A stretch of 64,000 nt of DNA from Paraburkholderia agricolaris (GTDB lineage: Bacteria; Pseudomonadota; Gammaproteobacteria; Burkholderiales; Burkholderiaceae): NCBI RefSeq assembly GCF_009455635.1, contig NZ_QPER01000002.1:2914001-2978000 (forward strand). Direction: 5' to 3'. The notes beneath the pieces were generated by a model. It saw nothing but the letters and a program-made list of their open reading frames with translations, was not told the DNA's origin and searched no databases. The position numbers and the translations under genes were made by a program. Positions 23,883-60,398 of the stretch are shown here, piece after piece (the first letter of the stretch is position 1; every line of letters begins with the position of its first letter).

Positions 23883-24893
23883 TCAGCCCAGCCGGTCGAG
23901 TGCCATCTGCGTGACGATGTCGAAGGCCTTCTGCGTCGCGCCAACGTCTGCGTTGCCTTTACCGTGGATATCGAACGCCGTGCCGTGCGCCGGCGTGGCG
24001 ATCGGTACCGGCAAACCGCCGTGCACGGTCACGCCGCGCCAGAAGCCCATCAGCTTCATCGCAATCTGGCCTTGGTCGTGATACATCGTGACGACACCGT
24101 CGAACGCTTTCTGGTCGCGCGCCCGCACAAAAATCGTATCGGCGGGGAACGGCCCCTGTGCGTCGTAACCGCGCTGGCGAGCCACCTCCACCGCGGGCGC
24201 GATGACGTCGATTTCCTCGCGGCCGAATGCACCGTTGTCGCCGTTATGCGGGTTGAAACCGCACACCGCGATGCGCGGCTTCGGATTGCCGGCGCGTTTC
24301 AGACCGTCGTGGATCAGTTGCACGGCGCCGACGATCCGTTCTTCCGAGAGCTTCGCGCTGACGTCCTTCAACGCCATATGGGACGTGACGCGCGACGTCC
24401 ACAGTTCGTCGAGCACGTTGAATTCGCAGAAGCTGCCGGTGTAGTCGAGCTGCTTCGCGAACCATTCCATCTCGTCGCCGGTTTCCATGCCGGCCATATG
24501 GAGCGACGTCTTGTTCACGGGCGCGAACAGCATGCCCTGCGTGACATTATTGCGCGTCAACGCCAGCGCCTGTTTGAACGCATCCAGACTGTAGCGTCCG
24601 CCGCGCTCGGTGGAAACGGCACGCTCGTACAGTGCGTCGCCGGGTAAGCGGAAGTCGATCAGCGACGGCACGCCCGCTTGACGGAACGCCTCGTCCGCGT
24701 CTTTGACCACCTGATACTCGAAGCGTTGGCCCGCGATCTCCATACCGGTTTCGAGCTCGCGCCGATCGCCGATGATCAGAAGCTCGGCGCGAGCCCGATT
24801 CTCAGCTTTCGCGAGCAAACGTGCGATCAACTCGGGACCGATACCGGCGGGATCGCCGAGGAGGACTGCAATGCGTGGGTTCATGGTGTTCAT
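23883..24893 (-). CDS. PdxA-family 4-phosphate dehydrogenase (PdxA2-like)
   Basis: The 336-residue protein has the PdxA start (MNPRIAVLLGDPAGIGPE) and metal-binding His in TSHMALKDV, GFNPHNGDNG and MYHDQGQ. PdxA oxidises 4-phospho-hydroxy-L-threonine in vitamin B6 synthesis. The PdxA2 branch instead oxidises D-threonate/D-erythronate 4-phosphate with decarboxylation to dihydroxyacetone phosphate. Catabolic neighbours favour the second role. That would need a sugar-acid kinase, but none is nearby; the only DUF1537 kinase in the window is fused to a second PdxA at 54709-57057. Start 24893 gives MNTMNPR; the ATG nine bases later is equally possible. Confidence 0.85.
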   Translation of the reverse strand: MNTMNPRIAVLLGDPAGIGPELIARLLAKAENRARAELLIIGDRRELETGMEIAGQRFEYQVVKDADEAFRQAGVPSLIDFRLPGDALYERAVSTERGGRYSLDAFKQALALTRNNVTQGMLFAPVNKTSLHMAGMETGDEMEWFAKQLDYTGSFCEFNVLDELWTSRVTSHMALKDVSAKLSEERIVGAVQLIHDGLKRAGNPKPRIAVCGFNPHNGDNGAFGREEIDVIAPAVEVARQRGYDAQGPFPADTIFVRARDQKAFDGVVTMYHDQGQIAMKLMGFWRGVTVHGGLPVPIATPAHGTAFDIHGKGNADVGATQKAFDIVTQMALDRLG

Positions 24894-50269: not shown

Positions 50270-50965
50270 TTAGAGCGACGCTCCTCCGCACATCACGATC
50301 TGTTGCCCGGTAATCGCGCCCGCTTCGGCGCCGAGCAGAAAGGCGGTCAGCGCCGCCACTTCCGACGGTTTGACGAAGCGGCCGATCGGCGGCAATTTAG
50401 GCGGGGTACCGGCCCGCGCGGGATGGCTGAGCAGCGGCGTATCGGTGGCGCCTGGCGCCACCACATTAACGGTGATGCCGCGCGGAGCAAGTTCGGCGGC
50501 CCAGGAGCGGGCCATGCCGACCAGCGCCGCTTTGGTCGCCGCGTATTGGCTGCGGGTGACGGCGCCGTTCGCGGTCCGGCTGCCGACCAGCACGATGCGG
50601 CCGCCTGCAGCCAGGTTCGGCAACAACGCATTGGCGAGATATGCCGCTGCGTCGACATGAATTCGCCACATCGCCGCGCCGTCTTCGGCGGCGAGTTCGC
50701 CGAGCGGCGCCGTGCGCATGAACCCTGCCGCATGCACGAACGCGTCACAAGCGCCGATAGCGTCGACCACTGGCCCCAGCGCGGCAAAATCGGTTACGTC
50801 GACGGAGACGATGGTCAGGCGCTCGACCTGATGCGTTGCCGGTGTCCGGCACAGGCCGGTTACACGCCACCCATCCTCCAGCAGACGTTGAACGATCGCC
50901 TCGCCGATTCCCGACGACGCACCCGTCACCACCGCATGCCGTTGCTCACCTGCTTTCGCTGTCAC
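50270..50965 (-). CDS. Short-chain dehydrogenase/reductase
   Basis: The 231-residue protein has cofactor motif TGASSGIG (14-21), catalytic S129, Y141 and K145 (YAATK), and HAAG in place of NNAG near residue 80. It lacks a clear acidic residue after strand 2 and has CRTP there, which favours NADPH. It converges with the MHS gene and lies upstream of none; on the minus strand it follows the DeoR gene by 45 bp, so it may be the last gene of the acid-sugar operon. The substrate is unknown. Confidence 0.83.
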   Translation of the reverse strand: MTAKAGEQRHAVVTGASSGIGEAIVQRLLEDGWRVTGLCRTPATHQVERLTIVSVDVTDFAALGPVVDAIGACDAFVHAAGFMRTAPLGELAAEDGAAMWRIHVDAAAYLANALLPNLAAGGRIVLVGSRTANGAVTRSQYAATKAALVGMARSWAAELAPRGITVNVVAPGATDTPLLSHPARAGTPPKLPPIGRFVKPSEVAALTAFLLGAEAGAITGQQIVMCGGASL

Positions 50966-51010
50966 TCCGCTTCTCCTTGAGAATCGGTCACGGAGAGACG
51001 TCGCGAATGC

Positions 51011-51778
51011 CTATCGAACCGCCACGGTCTCCACCGTCACCTCGCCCCGTTCGTCGAACAAGGCCAGTTCCTGCGGCTGAGCCGCGTTATCGGTGATCAA
51101 GGTCCAGTCGCGCTCGAGCGGCGTCCAATGCTGCTGGCTGGCGCGGCCGAGCTTGTCGGCGGTGACGAGCACGAACACGCTGGCCGCCTGACGGATCACG
51201 CATTCCTTCAGATACGCCTGCTCGGCCGTCGCCTCACACAGGCCACGCGTTGCTGTCACGCCGTCCGCGCCGAGAAACGCCTTGTCGAAACTCAGGCGGC
51301 TCAGCGCAAGCTGTGCGAGCGGCCCGAGCGTACTCATGCTCGACGAGCGGATATCGCCGCCGATCAGCGTCACCCGCACCTTGCTGGCGGCGAGCGCGCC
51401 GACCACCAGCAGGTTATTGGTCACGACGTGAATCGAACGATGCCCGATCAATTGCCGCGCCAGCGCTGCCGTGGTCGTCCCGCCGTCGAGAAACAGCGTG
51501 TCGTCCTCCTGGACATGCAGGAGCGCGGCGCGCGCGATCGCATCCTTCTGCTCGCGAAAGCTCTCGCTGCGCTCGTCGAGCGACGCTTCCGGTTCATGCG
51601 CACTGACCGCTGCCGCGCCGCCATAGGTGCGCAGGATCTGGCGGTCGTCGGCGAGTGCCCGCAAATCCCGCCGCACGGTCGCCTCGGACATGCCGAAGTG
51701 CTCGCACAGCGTACCGACATCTGTCATCCCGCCCAGTACAGCGTGAAGCATCGCCTCGCGGCGTTTCGCAACTTTCAT
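51011..51778 (-). CDS. DeoR-family transcriptional regulator
   Basis: The 255-residue protein has an N-terminal HTH (REAMLHAVLGGMTDVGTLCEHFGMSEATVRRDLRALADDRQILRTYGGA) and a sugar-phosphate-binding domain with FLDGGTTTAALA, VVTNNL and the C-terminal VTADKLGRAS. The ATG at 51778 places the HTH at the usual distance; an upstream ATG would add 27 atypical residues. DeoR proteins respond to phosphorylated sugars, which fits an operon with a sugar-acid kinase. It lies downstream of the BNR-repeat gene by 148 bp. Confidence 0.88.
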   Translation of the reverse strand: MKVAKRREAMLHAVLGGMTDVGTLCEHFGMSEATVRRDLRALADDRQILRTYGGAAAVSAHEPEASLDERSESFREQKDAIARAALLHVQEDDTLFLDGGTTTAALARQLIGHRSIHVVTNNLLVVGALAASKVRVTLIGGDIRSSSMSTLGPLAQLALSRLSFDKAFLGADGVTATRGLCEATAEQAYLKECVIRQAASVFVLVTADKLGRASQQHWTPLERDWTLITDNAAQPQELALFDERGEVTVETVAVR

Positions 51779-51926
51779 GATCTTGGATCGGAGGAACCGG
51801 TTAAGCGACAGCGCGCCAGCAGCGCGCGAAAAAGTGTGCCTAGTGTAGCGAATTTCCATTCGTACGCCGCGTCCCTTTCCGGTTCGCTCAAAACCGGCTG
51901 CTCCCCCTGCTGCCTGACTTACGACT

Positions 51927-53114
51927 TCAACCGCGCACCCACGTTTCGTCGACGCTCACGTACTTGATCCGTTGACGGAAGTAAGTGAAAGCAATATGCA
52001 ATGCACCGTCGGCCGATTGCACAATCGACGGATACGAATACTCGCGGTTACGCTGCTCGGCCGAGTTGTTCGTCATGCAGTAGCCATCGCCGATTTCCAG
52101 AGTGCGCCGACGTGTCCAACTGTGGCCGCCGTCTTCGGAAATCGCCAGTGACATCGGGCTTCGCGGCGCGCCCCAGAACGCGCTGCCGCGTGCCGACGCG
52201 CGCTGGTCGCGCAACGCGCCGCTGTCTTCGGAGTCTTCAATATCGTCGTACAGCGAGGCGCGCCGCCCGGTGGCATGCGACGCGTCGCTCTCGTTGTACA
52301 CCAGCGCGAGATGGCCATTTTTCAGCGACACGAACTGGATCGACGAATTGTTGTTCGGCAACGTGGTCGCTTGCGGCGCGCTCCACGTGCGGCCATCTTT
52401 CGAGCGGCTCGCGTATATGAAGTCCGCCCAGCGGCTGCGGAACAGCGCAAGCAACGAGCCGTCTGCGAGCACCTGGACGTTCATATGCACACAACCCACG
52501 CTATCGGGCACCTCATATTCGCGCCACGACTGTCCTTCGTCCGCGGAAATCAGCACGGCGCTGATATCGTTGTTGCCGACCCAACGCTCGCCGGGTTCGG
52601 TGCGGCACATAAACACCGGACACAACCACGCGCCGTCCGGCAGCACGACGATCGGCTGGCGCACGAAGGTGCCCGCACGGTCGAACAACGTTTCGATCGG
52701 CCCCCAGCTCACCCCGCCGTCGGACGAGATGCGCCGCCGCACAATCGCCGTGTTCTGATGTCCGGACAACTGCGCGGTATAAGTCAGCCACAAGCGGCCA
52801 TCGGGCGCGGTGAACAGCACGGGATTCTGCTCGGAGCGCGTCGGGTCGTTCGACAGTTTCTCGGGCTCGGACCAGACGCCGGTACCGGCACGCAAGCGCG
52901 ACATGTAGACCGACACGTCGGGAATTCCTTCCTGCGTACCGCCGAACCAGACACACAGCAGGTCGCCATCAGGCAGCGCATGCAGATTGGCCGCGTGATT
53001 CTGCACGCATGGAGACGGCAAATACGCGTCGCGGCGTTGCGCGTCGGCGTAGGTCACGCGTACGTGGCTGTCCCACGCCGTCGAGGCCGGGGTCTCTGCG
53101 AGGATGGAAGTCAT
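51927..53114 (-). CDS. BNR-repeat (sialidase-like) protein, no signal peptide
   Basis: The 395-residue beta-propeller protein has four Asp boxes (S-x-D-x-G-x-x-W type) at about 130-137 (SSDGGVSW), 190-197 (SADEGQSW), 238-244 (SKDGRTW, one residue shorter) and 326-333 (SEDGGHSW). Conserved stretches are YLPSPCVQNHAANLHALPDGDLLCVWFGG split over 31-59, and YSYPSIVQSADGALHIAFTYFR near the C-terminus. Such proteins include sialidases and rhamnosyl-glucuronate lyases. Without a signal peptide it would act in the cytoplasm on a small imported glycoside. The ATG at 53114 follows AGGAGAACTCCGG. It lies 25 bp after the symporter gene. Confidence 0.78.
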   Translation of the reverse strand: MTSILAETPASTAWDSHVRVTYADAQRRDAYLPSPCVQNHAANLHALPDGDLLCVWFGGTQEGIPDVSVYMSRLRAGTGVWSEPEKLSNDPTRSEQNPVLFTAPDGRLWLTYTAQLSGHQNTAIVRRRISSDGGVSWGPIETLFDRAGTFVRQPIVVLPDGAWLCPVFMCRTEPGERWVGNNDISAVLISADEGQSWREYEVPDSVGCVHMNVQVLADGSLLALFRSRWADFIYASRSKDGRTWSAPQATTLPNNNSSIQFVSLKNGHLALVYNESDASHATGRRASLYDDIEDSEDSGALRDQRASARGSAFWGAPRSPMSLAISEDGGHSWTRRRTLEIGDGYCMTNNSAEQRNREYSYPSIVQSADGALHIAFTYFRQRIKYVSVDETWVRG

Positions 53115-53139
53115 CCGGAGTTCTCCTGAATACGTCACT

Positions 53140-54564
53140 TCAATGTGATTCACGATGCTGAAGCCGCTCCCCGCTCGCGCCGACAGGCTTGGAACCCGAC
53201 GGAAACAGCAGCTTTTCCAGCACGATTACGATAGCCGGTGTCACCAGCGACACATACATATTGTCGATGCCGAACGGATTGCCGAGCAGATACCAGACCG
53301 TCGTCGAGATCGTTGCGATGATCAGCGCGGCCATTGCGCCACGGCTGCTGTTAAAGAATGGCAGATAGATGCCGATCAAGGCCACCACGGAGACCGTCAA
53401 CCGCAACGCCCGCGTGAAGAAGGACAGCGCGAGAATCTGCGGAACGAACAGCACGAACACGAGCGGCACGAGTCCGACCCCCAGCGAAATCCAGCGCGTC
53501 ATGCGCAATTCGACGTCCGGCGTCGGGTTGTAACGCGGCACATAGAAGTCCTTTACCACCAGCGATGCGATCGCAAGCGCCACCGTGCACACGCTGACGA
53601 AAATCGACGCCACCAGCGAAGTCGTCACCACGCCGGCCAGCAGCGGATTCATATGCTGCAGGAACACCGGCAGCGCATAGAGACTCTTGATGTGGGGAAA
53701 CAGAAACTTGGCAGCCACGCCGAGAAAACCCAGCGCGATCGAGATCGGCACGCATAACGCCGCGGCAAGCAGCGAGGCATTGCGCGCCGCCGCCGGCGAA
53801 CGGGTCGCGGAAATCGCCTGAATGATGAACTGGGTCGAGAAGATCGCGCCGGCCGTGCCGATGATCCACGCGCCGATCGTACCGTTGCTCAGCGAGCCGT
53901 TCCATGTGAAGTAATGCTCGGGCATCTGCGCCATCATCGGCTGGATGCCACCGGTCATTTGCCACGCCACGATCACCAGAATCGCGATGCCGATCAGCTT
54001 GACCGCGCTATGCACGATGGTCAGATAGGCGACGCTCTTCAAGCCGCCCCAGGCGAAATACACGGTACTGACAATCGCCGTGATCACCGCCGCAGTGGGC
54101 AGATTGATGCGCATCACCGTTGAAATCGCCGCCGCGCCGCTCACATAGTTGCCCACGTTCACGAGGAACAGCGCATAGATCATGATCGCCGAGACGACCA
54201 GCTTTGCACGCTTGCCGTACTTCATTGCGATGAAACCGGAGATCGTGAATTCACCCGAACTGTAGAGGCGTTTGGCCATGAACAGGCCGAAGAACAGAAA
54301 GCCGATCGACGCGGCGATCACCGACCACGACGCCGCGATACCCGCGCTGAACGCTTCCTGCGAGGTGCCGATCGTCGACTTCGCGCCGATGAACTCCGAC
54401 ATCAGCAATACCGCGACGACCATGGCCGGCATCGAGCGCGACGCCACCATGAACTGCTCGGAATTGCGGCTGCGCAGCCGGATGCTGAACCAGCTGGTCA
54501 GCAGGATGTAGAGCACGACCATCCCGATGATGATCGCTGTGTCCCAGTAGCTAAAAGTTGCCAT
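53140..54564 (-). CDS. Sodium:solute symporter (SSS family)
   Basis: The 474-residue protein has about 13 helices. Family features are MSEFIGAKSTIGTSQEAFSAGIAASWSVIAASIGF over helices 1-2, FTISGFIAMKYGKRAKLV, and FIIQAISATRSPAAARNASLLAAAL in the SSS motif region. SSS carriers import sugars, sialic acid, amino acids or short acids with sodium. The ATG at 54564 follows GGAGACACC. It lies 144 bp downstream of the kinase-PdxA gene and 25 bp upstream of the BNR gene. It is probably the importer for the substrate of this operon. Confidence 0.9.
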   Translation of the reverse strand: MATFSYWDTAIIIGMVVLYILLTSWFSIRLRSRNSEQFMVASRSMPAMVVAVLLMSEFIGAKSTIGTSQEAFSAGIAASWSVIAASIGFLFFGLFMAKRLYSSGEFTISGFIAMKYGKRAKLVVSAIMIYALFLVNVGNYVSGAAAISTVMRINLPTAAVITAIVSTVYFAWGGLKSVAYLTIVHSAVKLIGIAILVIVAWQMTGGIQPMMAQMPEHYFTWNGSLSNGTIGAWIIGTAGAIFSTQFIIQAISATRSPAAARNASLLAAALCVPISIALGFLGVAAKFLFPHIKSLYALPVFLQHMNPLLAGVVTTSLVASIFVSVCTVALAIASLVVKDFYVPRYNPTPDVELRMTRWISLGVGLVPLVFVLFVPQILALSFFTRALRLTVSVVALIGIYLPFFNSSRGAMAALIIATISTTVWYLLGNPFGIDNMYVSLVTPAIVIVLEKLLFPSGSKPVGASGERLQHRESH

Positions 54565-54708
54565 GGTGTCTCCAATGTATTTTGACGACGTCTTCGCATC
54601 GAAAAATTCGGCCGCCGGGCGTGTCCCCGCCTTCTCGCCGGCCGAGAATCTGTTTCCACCGCATGAGCGGCAAGGTGTTGCCGGTTGTTACCGGTTTGCG
54701 GCCCGCGC

Positions 54709-57057
54709 TCAGGCTTCCAGCTCGGAGTGCCGCGTCGCGAGATCGAGTGCCTGCTTCAGCGCCTCGAGCATGCTGCGTTCGTCGGCGATCCCCTTGCCGG
54801 CGATGTCGAAGGCCGTCCCGTGATCGACCGAGGTGCGGATCACCGGCAGGCCGACTGTCACGTTGACGCCGGCCTCGAGGCCCATCACCTTGACCGGGCC
54901 GTGGCCCTGGTCGTGATACATCGCGACCACCACATCGAAGTCCCCGCGGCCGGCGCGGAAAAACAGCGTGTCGGCGGGCAACGGACCTTCGACATCCCAG
55001 CCGCGCGCCTGCAGCACCTGCACCGCCGGAATGATCTTTTCCTCTTCCTCGCCGTAGCCGAACAAGCCGTTCTCGCCCGCGTGCGGATTGATCCCGCAGA
55101 CGCCGATGCGCGGGTTGTCGATTCCGGCGCGCACTAACGTTTCATGCGCGCGCTCGATGGTCCGTTGCACGAGACCCGGTTCAATGCGCCGAATCGCATC
55201 GAGCAGGCCGATGTGCGTCGTCACGTGAATCACGCGCAGCTTCGGCGCGACGAGCATCATCGACACTTCGTCGATACCCGTCAGATGCGCGAGCATCTCC
55301 GTATGCCCGGGGAAAATGTGGCCGCCTGCGTGCAGCGCTTCCTTGTTCAGCGGCGCCGTGCAGATTGCGTCCAGTTCGCCGGCCGAGGTCAGTTTGACGG
55401 TACGCGCGATGTACTGATACGCCGCATCGCCTGCGATGGCCGAGAGCTTGCCGTATGGCAGATCCGCCGGAATCAGGCCGAGATCGATGCAATCGACCAC
55501 ACCGCACTCGAAACCGGCGTCCGCGGGACTGTCGATCGAGCGCACTTCGAGCGCGACGCCCGCGCGCTGGCCCGCATCGCGCAAACGCGCGGCGTCGCCG
55601 ATCACGAGCGGTCGGCACTGTTCGTAGACGGAGGCATGGGCCAGAGCCTTCATGACGATTTCGGGGCCGACGCCGGCAGCATCGCCCATGGTGATGCCGA
55701 TAACTGGACGATAGGTCATGGTGGTAAGTCCTTTGAGGGTGGCCTCGATAGGCCGGGCAACGCGTTGAACGCCGGCGAGTTTTCGCCAGGCAAGATGAAG
55801 CGTGCCGGGATGGCCGAAGCCGCCGGCTTTGGTAACGACGTAAAGGCGGCGCCCGTTGTGATCCGCGTGCAGCAGCGGCACACCGCTTTCGATTTCTTCG
55901 ACAATCCGCAACTGGCCGATGCCGGCAGCGGACAGCAACGCGCGCGCGGTCTCGCCGCCGGTGGCGATTACGCTGCCGGCGAACGGCAGCGTGGGCGCAA
56001 GCAATGCTGCGAGACGCTGGGCGAACAGCAGGCCGTCGGCGACGCTGCTGCGATCGGACTGGCTCAGCGAAACGACGACGTGGCGCCCCTGTTGCAGCGC
56101 TGCGCTCACCTTGCGCGGAAGATTCGCATTCGCTTCTGTGGGCGGCTCGGCAAGCAGCGTCCGCGTCTCGACTTCGAACGCAACAAGCGCGCTGCCCGCT
56201 TCTGTTTTCAGCCGCTCGATCTGCGCATGGGACACGCTCGACATGCTGCCGACCACGGTCAGTACCGGCTGACCCGGCGTGTGCTGTGCCGGTGTGGCGA
56301 GCTGCACCGCATCGGCCAGATTCAATGCGCACATCAGATCACCTGCGAGCCCTGCCGAGCCGACCCAGAACACGCCGCGCAACGTTGCCGACGCGCGGGC
56401 GACCCGTTGCAGGTCGTCCGCCGTTTCGCTGTCGCACACCACGGCCTGAATCCCGGCCTGGCGCAGCGTGTCGAGCCGTTCGGCCAGCAGGGCGCTGTCC
56501 GCCCGAACCTCGGCCAGCGTGAGCGCAACCGCGCGCACGCCGTATTGCCCGAGCATCGCGGGAAGATTCGCTTCGCCACCGATCCCTTCGTTACGCCATA
56601 CCTCGGTGTCTTCCACCGCCAGCCCGTTCAGCCACTGGCGTGCGTCGCGTGTCGTGCGGCCGGCGGCCGGAAACGCCGGCGCCACGATCGCCATGCCGGC
56701 GAGCGGCACAAGCGCGGCCACCTCCGCCGCGAAGTTGCCGCGCAGCGTCGAATCGACTTTCTTGTAGAGCTTCGTCTGCGCGCAGCCCAGTTCGCGCCAC
56801 AGGTCCGCATGACGGTGCGCCGCCGACGTAGCGTCCAGCCGGCGCGAATCGGCGTCGACAGCCAGGACGTCGACCGCGTCGGTCACATCGTGCGGGTCGT
56901 TCGCTTCGCGCCTTGCAGCCGCCGAAGACGCGCGCGCATCCAGCATCACGACGCTGCGCAAGCCGAGGCGCGCGCCTGTCACGGCGCAGTCGGCTGTGCC
57001 CGACAGATCGTCGCCGATGATCAGGAGCCGCAAGCGGCGTTCGCGTGCAAGCTTCAT
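54709..57057 (-). CDS. Fusion protein: four-carbon acid-sugar kinase (DUF1537) + PdxA2-like dehydrogenase
   Basis: One uninterrupted 782-residue frame. Residues 1 to about 445 are a DUF1537 kinase: LLIIGDDLSGTADCA at the N-terminus, KKVDSTLRGNF, then the C-terminal nucleotide domain with SLSQSDRSS, ATGGETARALL and VTKAGGFGHPGTL. Residues from M447 are PdxA: MTYRPVIGITMGDAAGVGPE, His in VTTHIG, INPHAGENG and MYHDQGHG. DUF1537 kinases phosphorylate D-threonate, D-erythronate or similar acids at C4, and PdxA2 oxidises and decarboxylates the product to dihydroxyacetone phosphate, so both steps sit in one polypeptide. AAAGGA lies 9 bp before the internal ATG at 55719, so separate PdxA may also be made. 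The start overlaps the Fe-dehydrogenase stop (ATGA). Confidence 0.9.
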   Translation of the reverse strand: MKLARERRLRLLIIGDDLSGTADCAVTGARLGLRSVVMLDARASSAAARREANDPHDVTDAVDVLAVDADSRRLDATSAAHRHADLWRELGCAQTKLYKKVDSTLRGNFAAEVAALVPLAGMAIVAPAFPAAGRTTRDARQWLNGLAVEDTEVWRNEGIGGEANLPAMLGQYGVRAVALTLAEVRADSALLAERLDTLRQAGIQAVVCDSETADDLQRVARASATLRGVFWVGSAGLAGDLMCALNLADAVQLATPAQHTPGQPVLTVVGSMSSVSHAQIERLKTEAGSALVAFEVETRTLLAEPPTEANANLPRKVSAALQQGRHVVVSLSQSDRSSVADGLLFAQRLAALLAPTLPFAGSVIATGGETARALLSAAGIGQLRIVEEIESGVPLLHADHNGRRLYVVTKAGGFGHPGTLHLAWRKLAGVQRVARPIEATLKGLTTMTYRPVIGITMGDAAGVGPEIVMKALAHASVYEQCRPLVIGDAARLRDAGQRAGVALEVRSIDSPADAGFECGVVDCIDLGLIPADLPYGKLSAIAGDAAYQYIARTVKLTSAGELDAICTAPLNKEALHAGGHIFPGHTEMLAHLTGIDEVSMMLVAPKLRVIHVTTHIGLLDAIRRIEPGLVQRTIERAHETLVRAGIDNPRIGVCGINPHAGENGLFGYGEEEEKIIPAVQVLQARGWDVEGPLPADTLFFRAGRGDFDVVVAMYHDQGHGPVKVMGLEAGVNVTVGLPVIRTSVDHGTAFDIAGKGIADERSMLEALKQALDLATRHSELEA

Positions 57058-58223
57058 GGCAGCAGACGGCGATAGATCGCTTTCATGTCGTCGAGCGAAA
57101 GCGGTTTCGGGTTGTTGCCGAGCAGCCGTTTGACTTTCGCCGCCGCCACCGCGAGCGCATCGAGGTCGTCTTCGCTGACGCCGAACTTGCGCAGATCCTG
57201 GGGAATATCGACCGCCGCCGTCCACTCGTTGATCCGCTCGATCAGCTTGCGCGCGGCGGCCTCTTCGTTGTCGTCGTGCGCGCAGAGCGAGAGCGCATGC
57301 GCGACGTCGGCGAGCCGGCCCGCACAGGCATCCATATTGAAGGCCATCACATGCGGCAACAGCATCGCGTTCGCCACGCCGTGCGTGATATTGAACATGC
57401 CGCCGAGCGGATACGCGAGCGCATGCACCGCGGCCGTGCCGGCCGCCGTCAACGCGAGGCCGCCGTACATCGAGCCAAGCATCATGGCCTCGCGCGCCTT
57501 GATCGATTCACCGTGCTCGTACGCTTCGATAATGTTCGCGCCGATCAGCCGCATCGATTCCATCGCGAACATATCGCTGACCGGATTGGCCTTGGTCGAG
57601 ATATACGACTCGAGCGAATGCACGAACGCGTCCATGCCGGTCGCCGCAGTAATCGCTTTCGGCAATTTCAGCGTCAGCGCGGCATCGAGAATCACGAGCT
57701 GCGGCAACAGATGACGGCTCACGATGCCGACCTTCAGGGCCTCGTCCGGCAATGTGACGATTGCATTGGGCGTGACTTCCGAGCCGGTGCCGGCGGTGGT
57801 CGGTACGAGGATCAAGGGCACACCCGGTTTCCTGATCAGATCGATACCGAGCCATTCGCGCAGCGGCTGCTCATTGGTCAGGCGCACGGCAAACAGTTTG
57901 GCTGCGTCGAGCACGCTGCCGCCGCCGATCGACAGGATCGCGTGCGGCGCGAACGGTGCGATCTGCTCGCTGAACACGCTTTCCACGTTGCCGATGGTCG
58001 GCTCGGGTTCGACATCGCGCACGATCAGCACTTCGACATCTTTCTGCGCAAGTGCGGCCGTCACGCGATCGATCACACCGAGTTGCTCCATCGCAGGCTG
58101 GGTAATCAAGGCGATCCGTTTGACCGGAGTGTCGAGCAAGGCAAGTTTGTCAGCCAGCAGGTCAAGGCTGTGCGCGCCGTGCACGATGTGCTTGACGGTC
58201 TGGAAGTGATAGGTCGTGGTCAT
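57054..58223 (-). CDS. Iron-containing (group III) alcohol dehydrogenase
   Basis: The 389-residue protein has the NAD motif SIGGGS around 98-103 and metal ligands D198 and H202 (MDAFVHS), H267 and H281 (FNITHGVANAMLLPH). Group III enzymes reduce or oxidise lactaldehyde, 4-hydroxybutyrate, propanediol and similar. In this operon it may oxidise a hydroxy acid or reduce an aldehyde released by the DapA-like enzyme. Its stop overlaps the kinase-PdxA start by 4 bp, so translation is coupled. Confidence 0.9.
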   Translation of the reverse strand: MTTTYHFQTVKHIVHGAHSLDLLADKLALLDTPVKRIALITQPAMEQLGVIDRVTAALAQKDVEVLIVRDVEPEPTIGNVESVFSEQIAPFAPHAILSIGGGSVLDAAKLFAVRLTNEQPLREWLGIDLIRKPGVPLILVPTTAGTGSEVTPNAIVTLPDEALKVGIVSRHLLPQLVILDAALTLKLPKAITAATGMDAFVHSLESYISTKANPVSDMFAMESMRLIGANIIEAYEHGESIKAREAMMLGSMYGGLALTAAGTAAVHALAYPLGGMFNITHGVANAMLLPHVMAFNMDACAGRLADVAHALSLCAHDDNEEAAARKLIERINEWTAAVDIPQDLRKFGVSEDDLDALAVAAAKVKRLLGNNPKPLSLDDMKAIYRRLLP

Positions 58224-58265
58224 GACGGTAGGTCGTTGGCGATAGAGTGGCGTGGCCGAGGTGTT

Positions 58266-59156
58266 TTAACGTGACGCGTCGCGGTACACCGCGAGTGCCT
58301 GTTCGAGACGGGCGCGGGCATTGGCATCGAGCGGCTGGGCGGGCGAACGCGCCGGACCGGCCGGCATGCCGAGCATTTGCGCCGCGGTCTTCAGCACCAC
58401 CGGCATCGTGCCGAGCGCGAAGGCGTCACGCAGCGCGCGCAGCGATTCCTGCGCCTTGCGTGCGGCCGCGATATCGCCAGCCTGAAAGTGCTTCCAGATC
58501 GACGTGACGACATCCGGTACCGCATTCGTGGTCGCGGCCACCGCGCCGTCGCCGCCTGCGATCAGGGTCCACAGAATCATCGAGTCGGTGCCGGTGAACA
58601 CCGCGAAATCGTCGCGGCGCAGATTGATCAGTTGCAGCAAACGGTCGAAATCCCCACCGCTATCCTTGATACCGCGAATGTTGGGGATCTCGGCCAGGCG
58701 GCGTACCGTGTCCACGGTCAAGGTGATGCCGGCCTTCGCGGGGATCGTGTAGAGCATCACCGGCAAGGTGGTGGCCCGCGCGATCCGTTCATAGTGGGTG
58801 AACAGTTCCGGCTGCGTCGCGCCGTTGAAGTACGGCGTGATCACCGATACCGCATCCACGCCCACATCAAGCATCTTGCTGTTCAAATCGATCACGTCGC
58901 GCGTGGCATACGCGCCGGTACCAGCAATCACCGGCACGCGCGAGCGCGCCTGGTCGACGGCGATCTTCGCGATCCGCAGTTTCTCCGCTTCGTTCAACGC
59001 GATGAATTCGCCGTTGGTGCCGAGCACGAACAGCGCATGCACACCTGCCTCGATCAGGCGTTCGATCAGTGCGCGCAAACCCGCTTCATCGACCTCTTCC
59101 GATGCCGTCATCGGCGTGATGAGGGCGGGAATGATCCCTTTGAACAAGACTGTCAT
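58266..59156 (-). CDS. DapA/NanA-family aldolase or dehydratase
   Basis: The 296-residue TIM-barrel protein has Schiff-base K164 (GIKDSGGD), Y136 (LYTIPAKAG) and GTNGE at 47-51 in place of the GTTGE of true dihydrodipicolinate synthase. Related proteins are 2-keto-3-deoxy-acid aldolases, 5-keto-4-deoxyglucarate dehydratases and sialate lyases. With a PdxA2-like kinase fusion, a BNR protein and a symporter, a sugar-acid aldolase is more likely than lysine synthesis. The ATG at 59156 follows GTGGAGTC. It lies 43 bp upstream of the Fe-dehydrogenase gene. Confidence 0.87.
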   Translation of the reverse strand: MTVLFKGIIPALITPMTASEEVDEAGLRALIERLIEAGVHALFVLGTNGEFIALNEAEKLRIAKIAVDQARSRVPVIAGTGAYATRDVIDLNSKMLDVGVDAVSVITPYFNGATQPELFTHYERIARATTLPVMLYTIPAKAGITLTVDTVRRLAEIPNIRGIKDSGGDFDRLLQLINLRRDDFAVFTGTDSMILWTLIAGGDGAVAATTNAVPDVVTSIWKHFQAGDIAAARKAQESLRALRDAFALGTMPVVLKTAAQMLGMPAGPARSPAQPLDANARARLEQALAVYRDASR

Positions 59157-59177
59157 GCTCGACTCCACTTCTACGAA

Positions 59178-59209
59178 GGAAGGCTCGAGGTTCTGGCTCG
59201 AGGCCTTCC
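59178..59209 (-). terminator. Hairpin between the porin and the DapA-like gene
   Basis: GGAAGG-CTCGAG pairs with CTCGAG-GCCTTCC, a 12-bp stem with a one-base bulge and a 7-base loop, in the 78-bp gap. On the minus strand it follows the porin gene and is followed by TTCG, without a U-tract. It could reduce readthrough from the highly expressed porin into the enzymes or protect the porin mRNA 3' end. Confidence 0.6.
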
Positions 59210-59234
59210 TGTTTAATCAGACTGCTCGAATCGT

Positions 59235-60398
59235 TCAGAACTTGTGACGCAAGCCCAGCGCCGTGACGAACTGATGCGAGGTACTCGACGCCGTAATCGG
59301 CCACAGCGCCGCGGTTGCCGCGCGACCCGTCGAATCGATCCCGCTCGCCGCCTGCCAGCCGGCGCTGAGATACACGTCGGTACGCTTCGACAGGAAGTAG
59401 TCAGCGCCGGCGTTCACCTGGTTGTAGTGCGCGTCGCCGGCGCCGTGCGTACGGGTGTAGTTGTAGGCCATACCGAGCAGCGTGGCCGGCGTCAGCTGAT
59501 AGCGAAAGTTGGCTTCGACGTTATCGAAGGTCGCGGTATCGCCGGCAAAACGCGCCACGGGTGCGGACGCCGCGCCCGACCCCAGATCCTTGAACTTCGA
59601 ATTCGAGTAGATCAACCCAAAGGTGGCCGCCCCGAACGTGTACGCGCCGCCCACCGCCGCGATCTGAAGCGTACGCGCGGACGCGTAGCCGGAGTAGATC
59701 GGGGTGTTGTTCGGCGAGATCGCCGCCGTACCGGCAGTGCCGTCGAACAGTCCGGTGTTCGGCGTAGTGGCGTTCATATAGGACGCCGCAACCACCAACG
59801 GGCCGTTCGCATAGGTGGCGCCGAGCCCCCAGACGCGGTTATTCGAGAAGTCGCCGGCGGTGCCGCCAAAGCTGTACAAGCCGCTGAAGCGAAAGCCAGC
59901 ATAGTCGTTACTGGTGAACTTCACACTATTGCTAATCCGTTCATTCACGTAAAGGTTGTCCGTATTGCCCGGATGCGCGCCAAGACCGCCCGCCCACTGA
60001 TTGGCCGCCGTCAGTGCACCGAGAAAATCCGCGGAGGTGTCGTTCTGCCGCCCCGCTGTCACCTTACCGAAACCGCCGCTCAAACCCACATAAGCGGCGC
60101 GCCCGAACTCACGGCCGTTCTGACCGAGCGTGCCGGCCGTGCTGCTGAAACCATTCTCAAGGACAAACAGCGCGCTCAGGCCGCCGCCCAGATCCTCCTG
60201 ACCGCGCAATCCCCAGCGGCTGCCAGACAACGTGCCGCTCGACATCTGGAGATTCGAGTGGCCTTTCTGGCTGTTCGAATAGACGAGCGACGTGTCGATC
60301 AATCCATACAGAGTAACGCTGCTTTGCGCGTGCGCGCTGGTCGTGGCCGCACCGAGTACGCCCAATGTGGCCAGGACCTGGAAGGAACGTTTCTTCAA
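59235..60398 (-). CDS. Gram-negative porin (OmpC-type, Burkholderia)
   Basis: The 387-residue protein has a signal peptide (MKKRSFQVLATLGVLGAATTSAHA, cut before QSSVTLYG near residue 25), followed by the standard Burkholderia porin start SSVTLYGLIDTSLVY. It has GSRWGLRGQEDLGGGLSALFVLE, and the C-terminal Phe (LRHKF) recognised by the BAM complex. About 16 amphipathic strands fit a trimeric general porin. It is the first gene of the minus-strand acid-sugar operon, so it may be the outer-membrane entry for that substrate. A good promoter lies about 115 bp upstream. Confidence 0.93.
   Translation of the reverse strand: MKKRSFQVLATLGVLGAATTSAHAQSSVTLYGLIDTSLVYSNSQKGHSNLQMSSGTLSGSRWGLRGQEDLGGGLSALFVLENGFSSTAGTLGQNGREFGRAAYVGLSGGFGKVTAGRQNDTSADFLGALTAANQWAGGLGAHPGNTDNLYVNERISNSVKFTSNDYAGFRFSGLYSFGGTAGDFSNNRVWGLGATYANGPLVVAASYMNATTPNTGLFDGTAGTAAISPNNTPIYSGYASARTLQIAAVGGAYTFGAATFGLIYSNSKFKDLGSGAASAPVARFAGDTATFDNVEANFRYQLTPATLLGMAYNYTRTHGAGDAHYNQVNAGADYFLSKRTDVYLSAGWQAASGIDSTGRAATAALWPITASSTSHQFVTALGLRHKF

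Follow-up and report, generated by a model that had tools for sequence, protein, structure and literature searches.

The window analysed here, a stretch of 64,000 nucleotides of Paraburkholderia agricolaris DNA, harbors a gene in which a DUF1537-type kinase and a PdxA dehydrogenase are joined in one frame, both domains being complete and retaining conserved residues. The gene sits in a conserved operon, its relatives have repeatedly switched between the fused and the split state, and the linker between the two parts carries a conserved signature of translation initiation. Probably, the gene specifies a bifunctional kinase-PdxA enzyme together with a free PdxA produced from a ribosome entry site in the linker, with fused and split forms interconverting. 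The parts of the gene are as follows.

54709..57057, minus strand: fused kinase-PdxA gene, 782 codons plus stop (open frame, Pfam/NCBIfam domains, single frame kept in relatives)
55798..57027, minus strand: DUF1537-type kinase part, residues 11-420 (SBD_N plus NBD_C)
55720..55797, minus strand: linker, residues 421-446, with disorder predicted at 432-448 (AlphaFold2 pLDDT < 50)
55729..55734, minus strand: Shine-Dalgarno-like AAAGGA within the linker codons AAA GGA, duplex dG -5.3
55717..55719, minus strand: internal ATG (M447), conserved, putative start of a free PdxA of 336 aa and 35.6 kDa
54712..55719, minus strand: PdxA part, residues 447-782 (PF04166, TIGR00557; 4jqp, 2hi1, 6e85 by sequence and fold)

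From the ATG at 57057 to the stop at 54709, read on the minus strand (an earlier reading made from the sequence only had named no strand), the 782 codons are free of stops; together with the domains, this confirms the claim of a single 782-residue protein holding a complete kinase and a complete PdxA. In the kinase part, PF07005 (SBD_N) spans residues 11-239 (153 bits against the Pfam cut-off of 25) and PF17042 (NBD_C) residues 266-420 (78 bits against 28); both are full length, as expected of the DUF1537 four-carbon acid sugar kinase family, and the closest solved kinases by sequence are 4xfm/4xgj and 4xfr. In the PdxA part, PF04166 (Pfam) is found at residues 479-770, and the PdxA model TIGR00557 at residues 453-774, where it reaches 366 bits (cut-off 290) and is covered from position 2 to 320 of 320. 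Since both domains are complete, a chance open reading frame is ruled out. Across 42 aligned fused proteins, K100, D102, S103, R106, G107, G367, and G368 of the kinase are invariant, and so are H585, H615, and H715 of the PdxA part, which align with histidines of the E. coli chain 1ps6 and which we take to be the three metal-ligand histidines of PdxA. The invariant residues represent candidate catalytic residues of the fused proteins.

The uninterrupted fusion is present in 15 of the 117 same-genus genomes, the window's own included, and because the frame is open in all of these, an assembly error or frameshift is ruled out and the fusion cannot be regarded as a sequencing artefact. Nine more of the 117 genomes display a whole-length match with one or two TGA codons inside; the five of them that were inspected (L019-L023) turned out to be split genes with their own start, so the assumption that every same-frame neighbour is a fusion was rejected. 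At the family level, a scan of 299 genomes, overlapping in part with the same-genus set, revealed a full-length uninterrupted match in 21 and a partial uninterrupted one in three. In the phylum of an Arthrobacter relative, 35 of 296 genomes matched at E 1e-60 or better; the frame was uninterrupted over its full length in only two, including the genome of the query itself.

Overall, 176 loci were collected, the contig scan for relatives retaining the best 80 of 591: 101 are split, 16 have no kinase nearby, and 59 are fused, the latter including near-copies (L048/L104, L014/L032), contig-edge genes, and two loci, L153 and L167, where the PdxA part ends early. Split, adjacent genes are commoner, in accord with the statement of the sequence-only reading that kinase and PdxA are usually two proteins; the search for fusions in other genomes, which it had proposed, found them in the genus, the family, Salinicola, Actinomycetota, and others. 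The fused records come from Burkholderia, Paraburkholderia, Salinicola, an Acidobacteriales MAG, Nonomuraea, Sinomonas, Arthrobacter, Rhodococcus, and Streptomyces, as well as from Caballeronia and Cupriavidus plasmids. In RefSeq, the Caballeronia fusion is a single CDS named only pdxA.

The two enzyme families are not new to each other. Zhang et al. are said to have described, in 2016, a D-threonate pathway comprising DtnK and PdxA2, and the kinase paper of Thiaville et al. from the same year reportedly contains a fusion to PdxA2. The loci collected here share both enzyme families with the DtnK and PdxA2 system; they are mostly neighbouring genes with the kinase first, many of them near a DeoR-type regulator. 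In contrast to that system, the window encodes one protein, which falls short of the substrate-specific models, and its operon adds an aldolase, an iron-containing alcohol dehydrogenase (Fe-ADH), and a BNR protein. A survey of gene fusions (BMC Genomics, 2016, PMC4921024, Table 4) lists DUF1537 (kinase) fused to a PLP gene among the B-vitamin gene fusions, citing Thiaville et al. 2016 for the DUF1537 fusion. Hence, the kinase-PdxA type of fusion is already known and has been in print since 2016. The fusion of the survey resembles the present one as a DUF1537 kinase joined to a vitamin B6 pathway gene, but the accessible portion of that article is silent on an internal start, on repeated fusion and splitting, and on this operon. 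Related literature includes PMC12540250, PMC7954711, PMC10971088, and PMC9997740; the last discusses PdxA2, and the words “fusion” and “fused” are absent from its main text. In the open-licence literature, which leaves out the two primary papers of 2016, no report of an internal start in kinase-PdxA fusions was found; searches there for the name of the kinase together with PdxA, and for internal starts in fused genes generally, gave no papers. A comparable arrangement, i.e., one frame with two products, the shorter of which arises from an internal start, is that of Cas11b (PMC11899642, accessible portion), where it is experimental, whereas in the kinase-PdxA fusions it is deduced from conservation.

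The positions given by the sequence-only reading for M447 at 55719 and for AAAGGA are exact, the latter ending precisely 9 nt ahead of the internal ATG. Shine-Dalgarno (SD)-like pairing at the PdxA start with a dG of -5 kcal/mol or stronger is found in 51 of the 59 fused loci against 14.8% of 39,715 control windows, which were taken from the same frames and searched identically, so that the picking of the best site in a stretch is allowed for. Pairing of this strength is absent in eight of the 59 (L017, L035, L040, three Nonomuraea rows, L164, and L165); in the split genes, it occurs at the PdxA start in 51 of 101. The signal is also evident at a fixed position, without any search: among the 39 fused loci whose PdxA is at least 76% identical, the window's own included, the codon aligned with M447 is ATG in 38, and a dG of -4.5 or stronger is likewise found in 38. 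At the same position, split relatives at 87% or more identity have ATG in seven of eight cases and pairing of -4.5 or stronger in seven of eight.

After removal of 12 fused loci with near-identical linkers, 47 distinct linkers were left of the 59. Their junction starts attain a dG of -5 in 83% of cases vs 21% of 704 same-kind codons in the same frames, and in 46 of 47 a 70-nt window placed at the start ranks within the least structured 10% of its frame. The junction start being picked as the best in a short stretch (as in the SD and joint-feature tests), this window is also less structured than its synonymous versions, with a mean z of 1.87 and 57% of the linkers at p < 0.05; among the controls, this level is attained by 2% of the random windows (282) and 6% of the interdomain linkers of the kinase (47). 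Since the start window exceeds its synonymous versions, the openness is a codon effect and does not stem from the amino-acid make-up alone. An SD-like site and open mRNA coincide in 38 of the 47 junctions vs 14 of 1857 ATGs located inside 329 other long frames. This baseline consists of mechanically called ORFs (at least 400 aa) taken from the window plus 70 further stretches, not of annotated genes, and its ATGs, unlike the junction starts, are not best-of-stretch picks. The picked start is other than the ATG at the M447 position in 19 of 47 linkers, 13 of which possess both features; so do 25 of the 28 linkers with the best start at that ATG.

The choice of codons is telling as well. It was examined in rows hand-picked from two linker types, 11 of the KG/QG type and 13 of the EE type, rather than in all fused loci. 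The linker Gly is encoded by GGA in 11 of 11 KG/QG rows (GGA making up 5.5% of their Gly codons), and no other of the 55 invariant Gly columns is fixed on GGA; GAG-GAA is codon-invariant in the EE rows, where three of 25 invariant Glu columns are single-codon and two of these are the linker pair.

Other results are less favorable. Synonymous resampling of the SD alone gave a weak signal, with three of the 47 linkers at p < 0.05 (Fisher 0.012), and the p-values are not independent because the rows are related. Only 10 of the 47 junction starts rank first in SD strength among the positions of their frame with the same codon. The window's own gene has a modest SD (-5.3), which is equalled by one of 11 other ATGs in frame; the strongest SD-like 8-mer of its linker is situated at -30 with no start behind it, and the openness relative to synonymous versions yields p = 0.053. 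It is conceivable, if unlikely, that the fusion is the sole product of the gene and the start region in the linker an unused leftover from a split ancestor: fused and split forms are closely related, leftovers are expected in young fusions, and the SD-only synonymous test is weak. Still, a leftover should decay at synonymous sites, but the codons are biased toward openness, with GGA and GAG-GAA invariant, and the start signature is still present in a clade of 16 rows that are all fused and in fusions from actinobacteria with 43-49% identity.

It is also known that intragenic SD-like stretches can slow ribosomes. Hence, the SD-like open linker, located at the domain border, might represent a translational pause aiding co-translational folding. 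This explanation has little probability, since a pause could do without a start codon, whereas an in-frame ATG or GTG follows the strongest SD-like 8-mer of the linker in 36 of 43 cases vs 24% of 5646 sites elsewhere in the same frames, which argues for initiation rather than pausing; likewise, ATG at M447 is nearly universal (38/39), and the interdomain linker of the kinase lacks such openness. Taken together, the SD, the start codon, and the open mRNA are conserved beyond the needs of the protein, the weak SD-only synonymous test notwithstanding. The suggestion of the sequence-only reading that both a fusion and a free PdxA are made thus holds to the extent that conservation of the SD, the ATG, the open mRNA, and the codons makes the internal start look real. 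At the level of sequence, the dual-product reading is well supported, and the gene would yield an 82-kDa fusion and a 36-kDa PdxA.

The relationship of fused and split genes was traced on two trees. The larger one has 130 rows (160 loci with a kinase, minus 21 partial or off-frame ones and nine near-copies), 47 of them fused after thinning; it was built with a quick method, has some long branches flagged, and displays at least ten changes between the fused and split states, all ten forced by starred branches, the count carrying no direction (fusing vs splitting). On a careful tree of 44 rows, comprising the operon clade and an outgroup, there are six changes, five of them forced and again without direction, and a single change was obtained in 0% of 200 bootstrap trees. 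The sister rows L039 (split, with a four-base overlap) and L134 (fused) are united with a support of 100/99. In the split loci L139 and L159, the kinase stop lies at, is part of, or abuts the Shine-Dalgarno of PdxA (TAAAGGA in L139; TGAAGGGA in L159), and the linkers of the fusions hold a purine-rich stretch similar to that of these two loci. In the split L158 and L163, the kinase stop is more than 100 nt upstream.

Structure prediction with AlphaFold2 (41 fused proteins, monomer only) gave a mean pLDDT of 82, values below 50 for the linker at 432-448, and a pTM of 0.58; the fused protein is predicted to consist of two folded parts connected by a floppy linker, with no fixed arrangement. PdxA chains (4jqp, 2hi1, 6e85) and DUF1537 chains (4xgj, 5dmh) were matched separately by fold, and among the 18 sequence matches and 50 fold matches to solved structures listed there is no kinase-PdxA fusion. 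The long but poor fold matches to MaeB (TM 0.27-0.29) were discarded as not of this kind. The closest solved PdxA, the stand-alone enzyme of Burkholderia phymatum (PDB 4jqp), is 79% identical in the structural match, but it is a separate chain of 342 residues with no kinase part.

The product of the kinase is a stable 4-phospho acid, and the beta-keto acid arises and decarboxylates at the PdxA step. Since the keto acid is formed only at the latter step, it cannot be channelled by a fusion of the kinase with PdxA; hence, the proposal of the sequence-only reading that the fusion channels an unstable keto-acid phosphate is not supported, and the linker is predicted to be floppy besides. Channelling of the 4-phospho acid itself between both active sites would fit two consecutive steps on one chain and the recurrence of the fused state on the tree. 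This purpose is nevertheless improbable for the fusion given how often fused genes alternate with split ones in the same operon, the stability of the kinase product (the unstable keto acid comes later), and the floppy linker with no fixed domain arrangement predicted for the monomer.

The neighbours of the fused gene form a run which is largely retained in its relatives.

59235..60398, minus strand: operon porin (domain and annotation of relatives)
58266..59153, minus strand: DHDPS/N-acetylneuraminate-lyase family aldolase, kept in relatives
57054..58223, minus strand: iron-containing alcohol dehydrogenase (Fe-ADH), kept with the kinase-PdxA gene in relatives
53140..54564, minus strand: sodium:solute symporter family transporter (domain and relatives)
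51927..53153, minus strand: BNR_2 (sialidase-like) beta-propeller protein (domain)
51011..51859, minus strand: DeoR-family regulator (domain and relatives)
50270..50965, minus strand: SDR-family oxidoreductase, last gene of the conserved run

The Fe-ADH gene is upstream, and its stop overlaps the ATG of the kinase by 4 nt (ATGA). The run porin, DHDPS-family aldolase, Fe-ADH, kinase-PdxA, symporter, BNR, DeoR, SDR is also found on a mobilizable Caballeronia plasmid (RefSeq), and it largely accompanies both fused (L024, L032, L175) and split (L039, L045, L054) genes. The BNR_2 protein had no PDB relatives by sequence. Near the actinobacterial kinase-PdxA genes, an HpcH/HpaI aldolase and an aldo/keto reductase are often found instead, and the BNR proteins near some of these genes are 55-60% identical to the BNR_2 protein of the window. 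There are two parallel clusters (50270-60398 in the window; L042, L047, L048, L058, L072, L073, and L083), one with the DHDPS-family aldolase and Fe-ADH in Betaproteobacteria and one with the HpcH/HpaI aldolase and aldo/keto reductase in Actinomycetota, BNR occurring in both; possibly, they represent one pathway in which unrelated enzymes perform the same steps. In Salinicola salarius (L025, 6117-7787), a gene of a nickel insertion protein (PF01969) precedes the fusion, a hint at an enzyme with a nickel cofactor in that pathway. A second PdxA-family gene of the window (23913-24893, minus strand) is 37% identical to the PdxA part.

As to the substrate, D-threonate or D-erythronate, as the sequence-only reading had it, is not supported: the D-threonate kinase equivalog NF047819 (172 vs 450 bits) and the D-threonate 4-phosphate dehydrogenase equivalog NF002891 (330 vs 583 bits) both remain below their cut-offs, and a simple D-threonate route would seemingly have no need of the aldolase and the alcohol dehydrogenase of the operon. 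Salvage of 4-hydroxythreonine for vitamin B6 in place of sugar-acid degradation is quite doubtful too: DUF1537 members phosphorylate this compound (PMC7954711, PMC10971088, accessible portions) and the TIGR00557 cut-off is exceeded, but the operon looks catabolic, with its porin, symporter, aldolase, alcohol dehydrogenase, and DeoR regulator, and the genome (8.72 Mb, 2 contigs) encodes three further PdxA homologues, of which two lie on the other contig.

In the preferred reading, i.e., a bifunctional enzyme accompanied by a free PdxA, the N-terminal kinase would phosphorylate O4 of a four-carbon acid or closely analogous compound, and the resulting phosphate would be oxidised at C3 by the C-terminal PdxA, with subsequent decarboxylation, most likely to dihydroxyacetone phosphate. 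The ribosome entry site in the linker would let the same mRNA give additional free PdxA (336 aa), which may pair with the PdxA subunits of the fusion and thereby increase the amount of dehydrogenase relative to kinase. The fused and split forms would be converted into each other by small frame or stop changes just ahead of the PdxA start, and the start region would survive fusion because the forms interconvert in this manner. A broader proposition, tentative and one we lean slightly against in its full breadth, is that the kinase-PdxA genes of Proteobacteria and Actinomycetota are reversible two-product genes with a frame/stop toggle, in which a selected internal site gives rise to PdxA dimers with one kinase arm in nearly every fused lineage.

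The operon points to an uncharacterised sugar-acid pathway. With fused and split relatives sharing one operon, a known fusion becomes a testable example of gene fusion and splitting in bacteria, in which the start region of the downstream gene outlives the fusion. If the internal start works, the annotation as one protein (pdxA alone in the Caballeronia relative) overlooks the kinase as well as a second product, and the enzymes of fused pathways may occur in ratios other than one to one.
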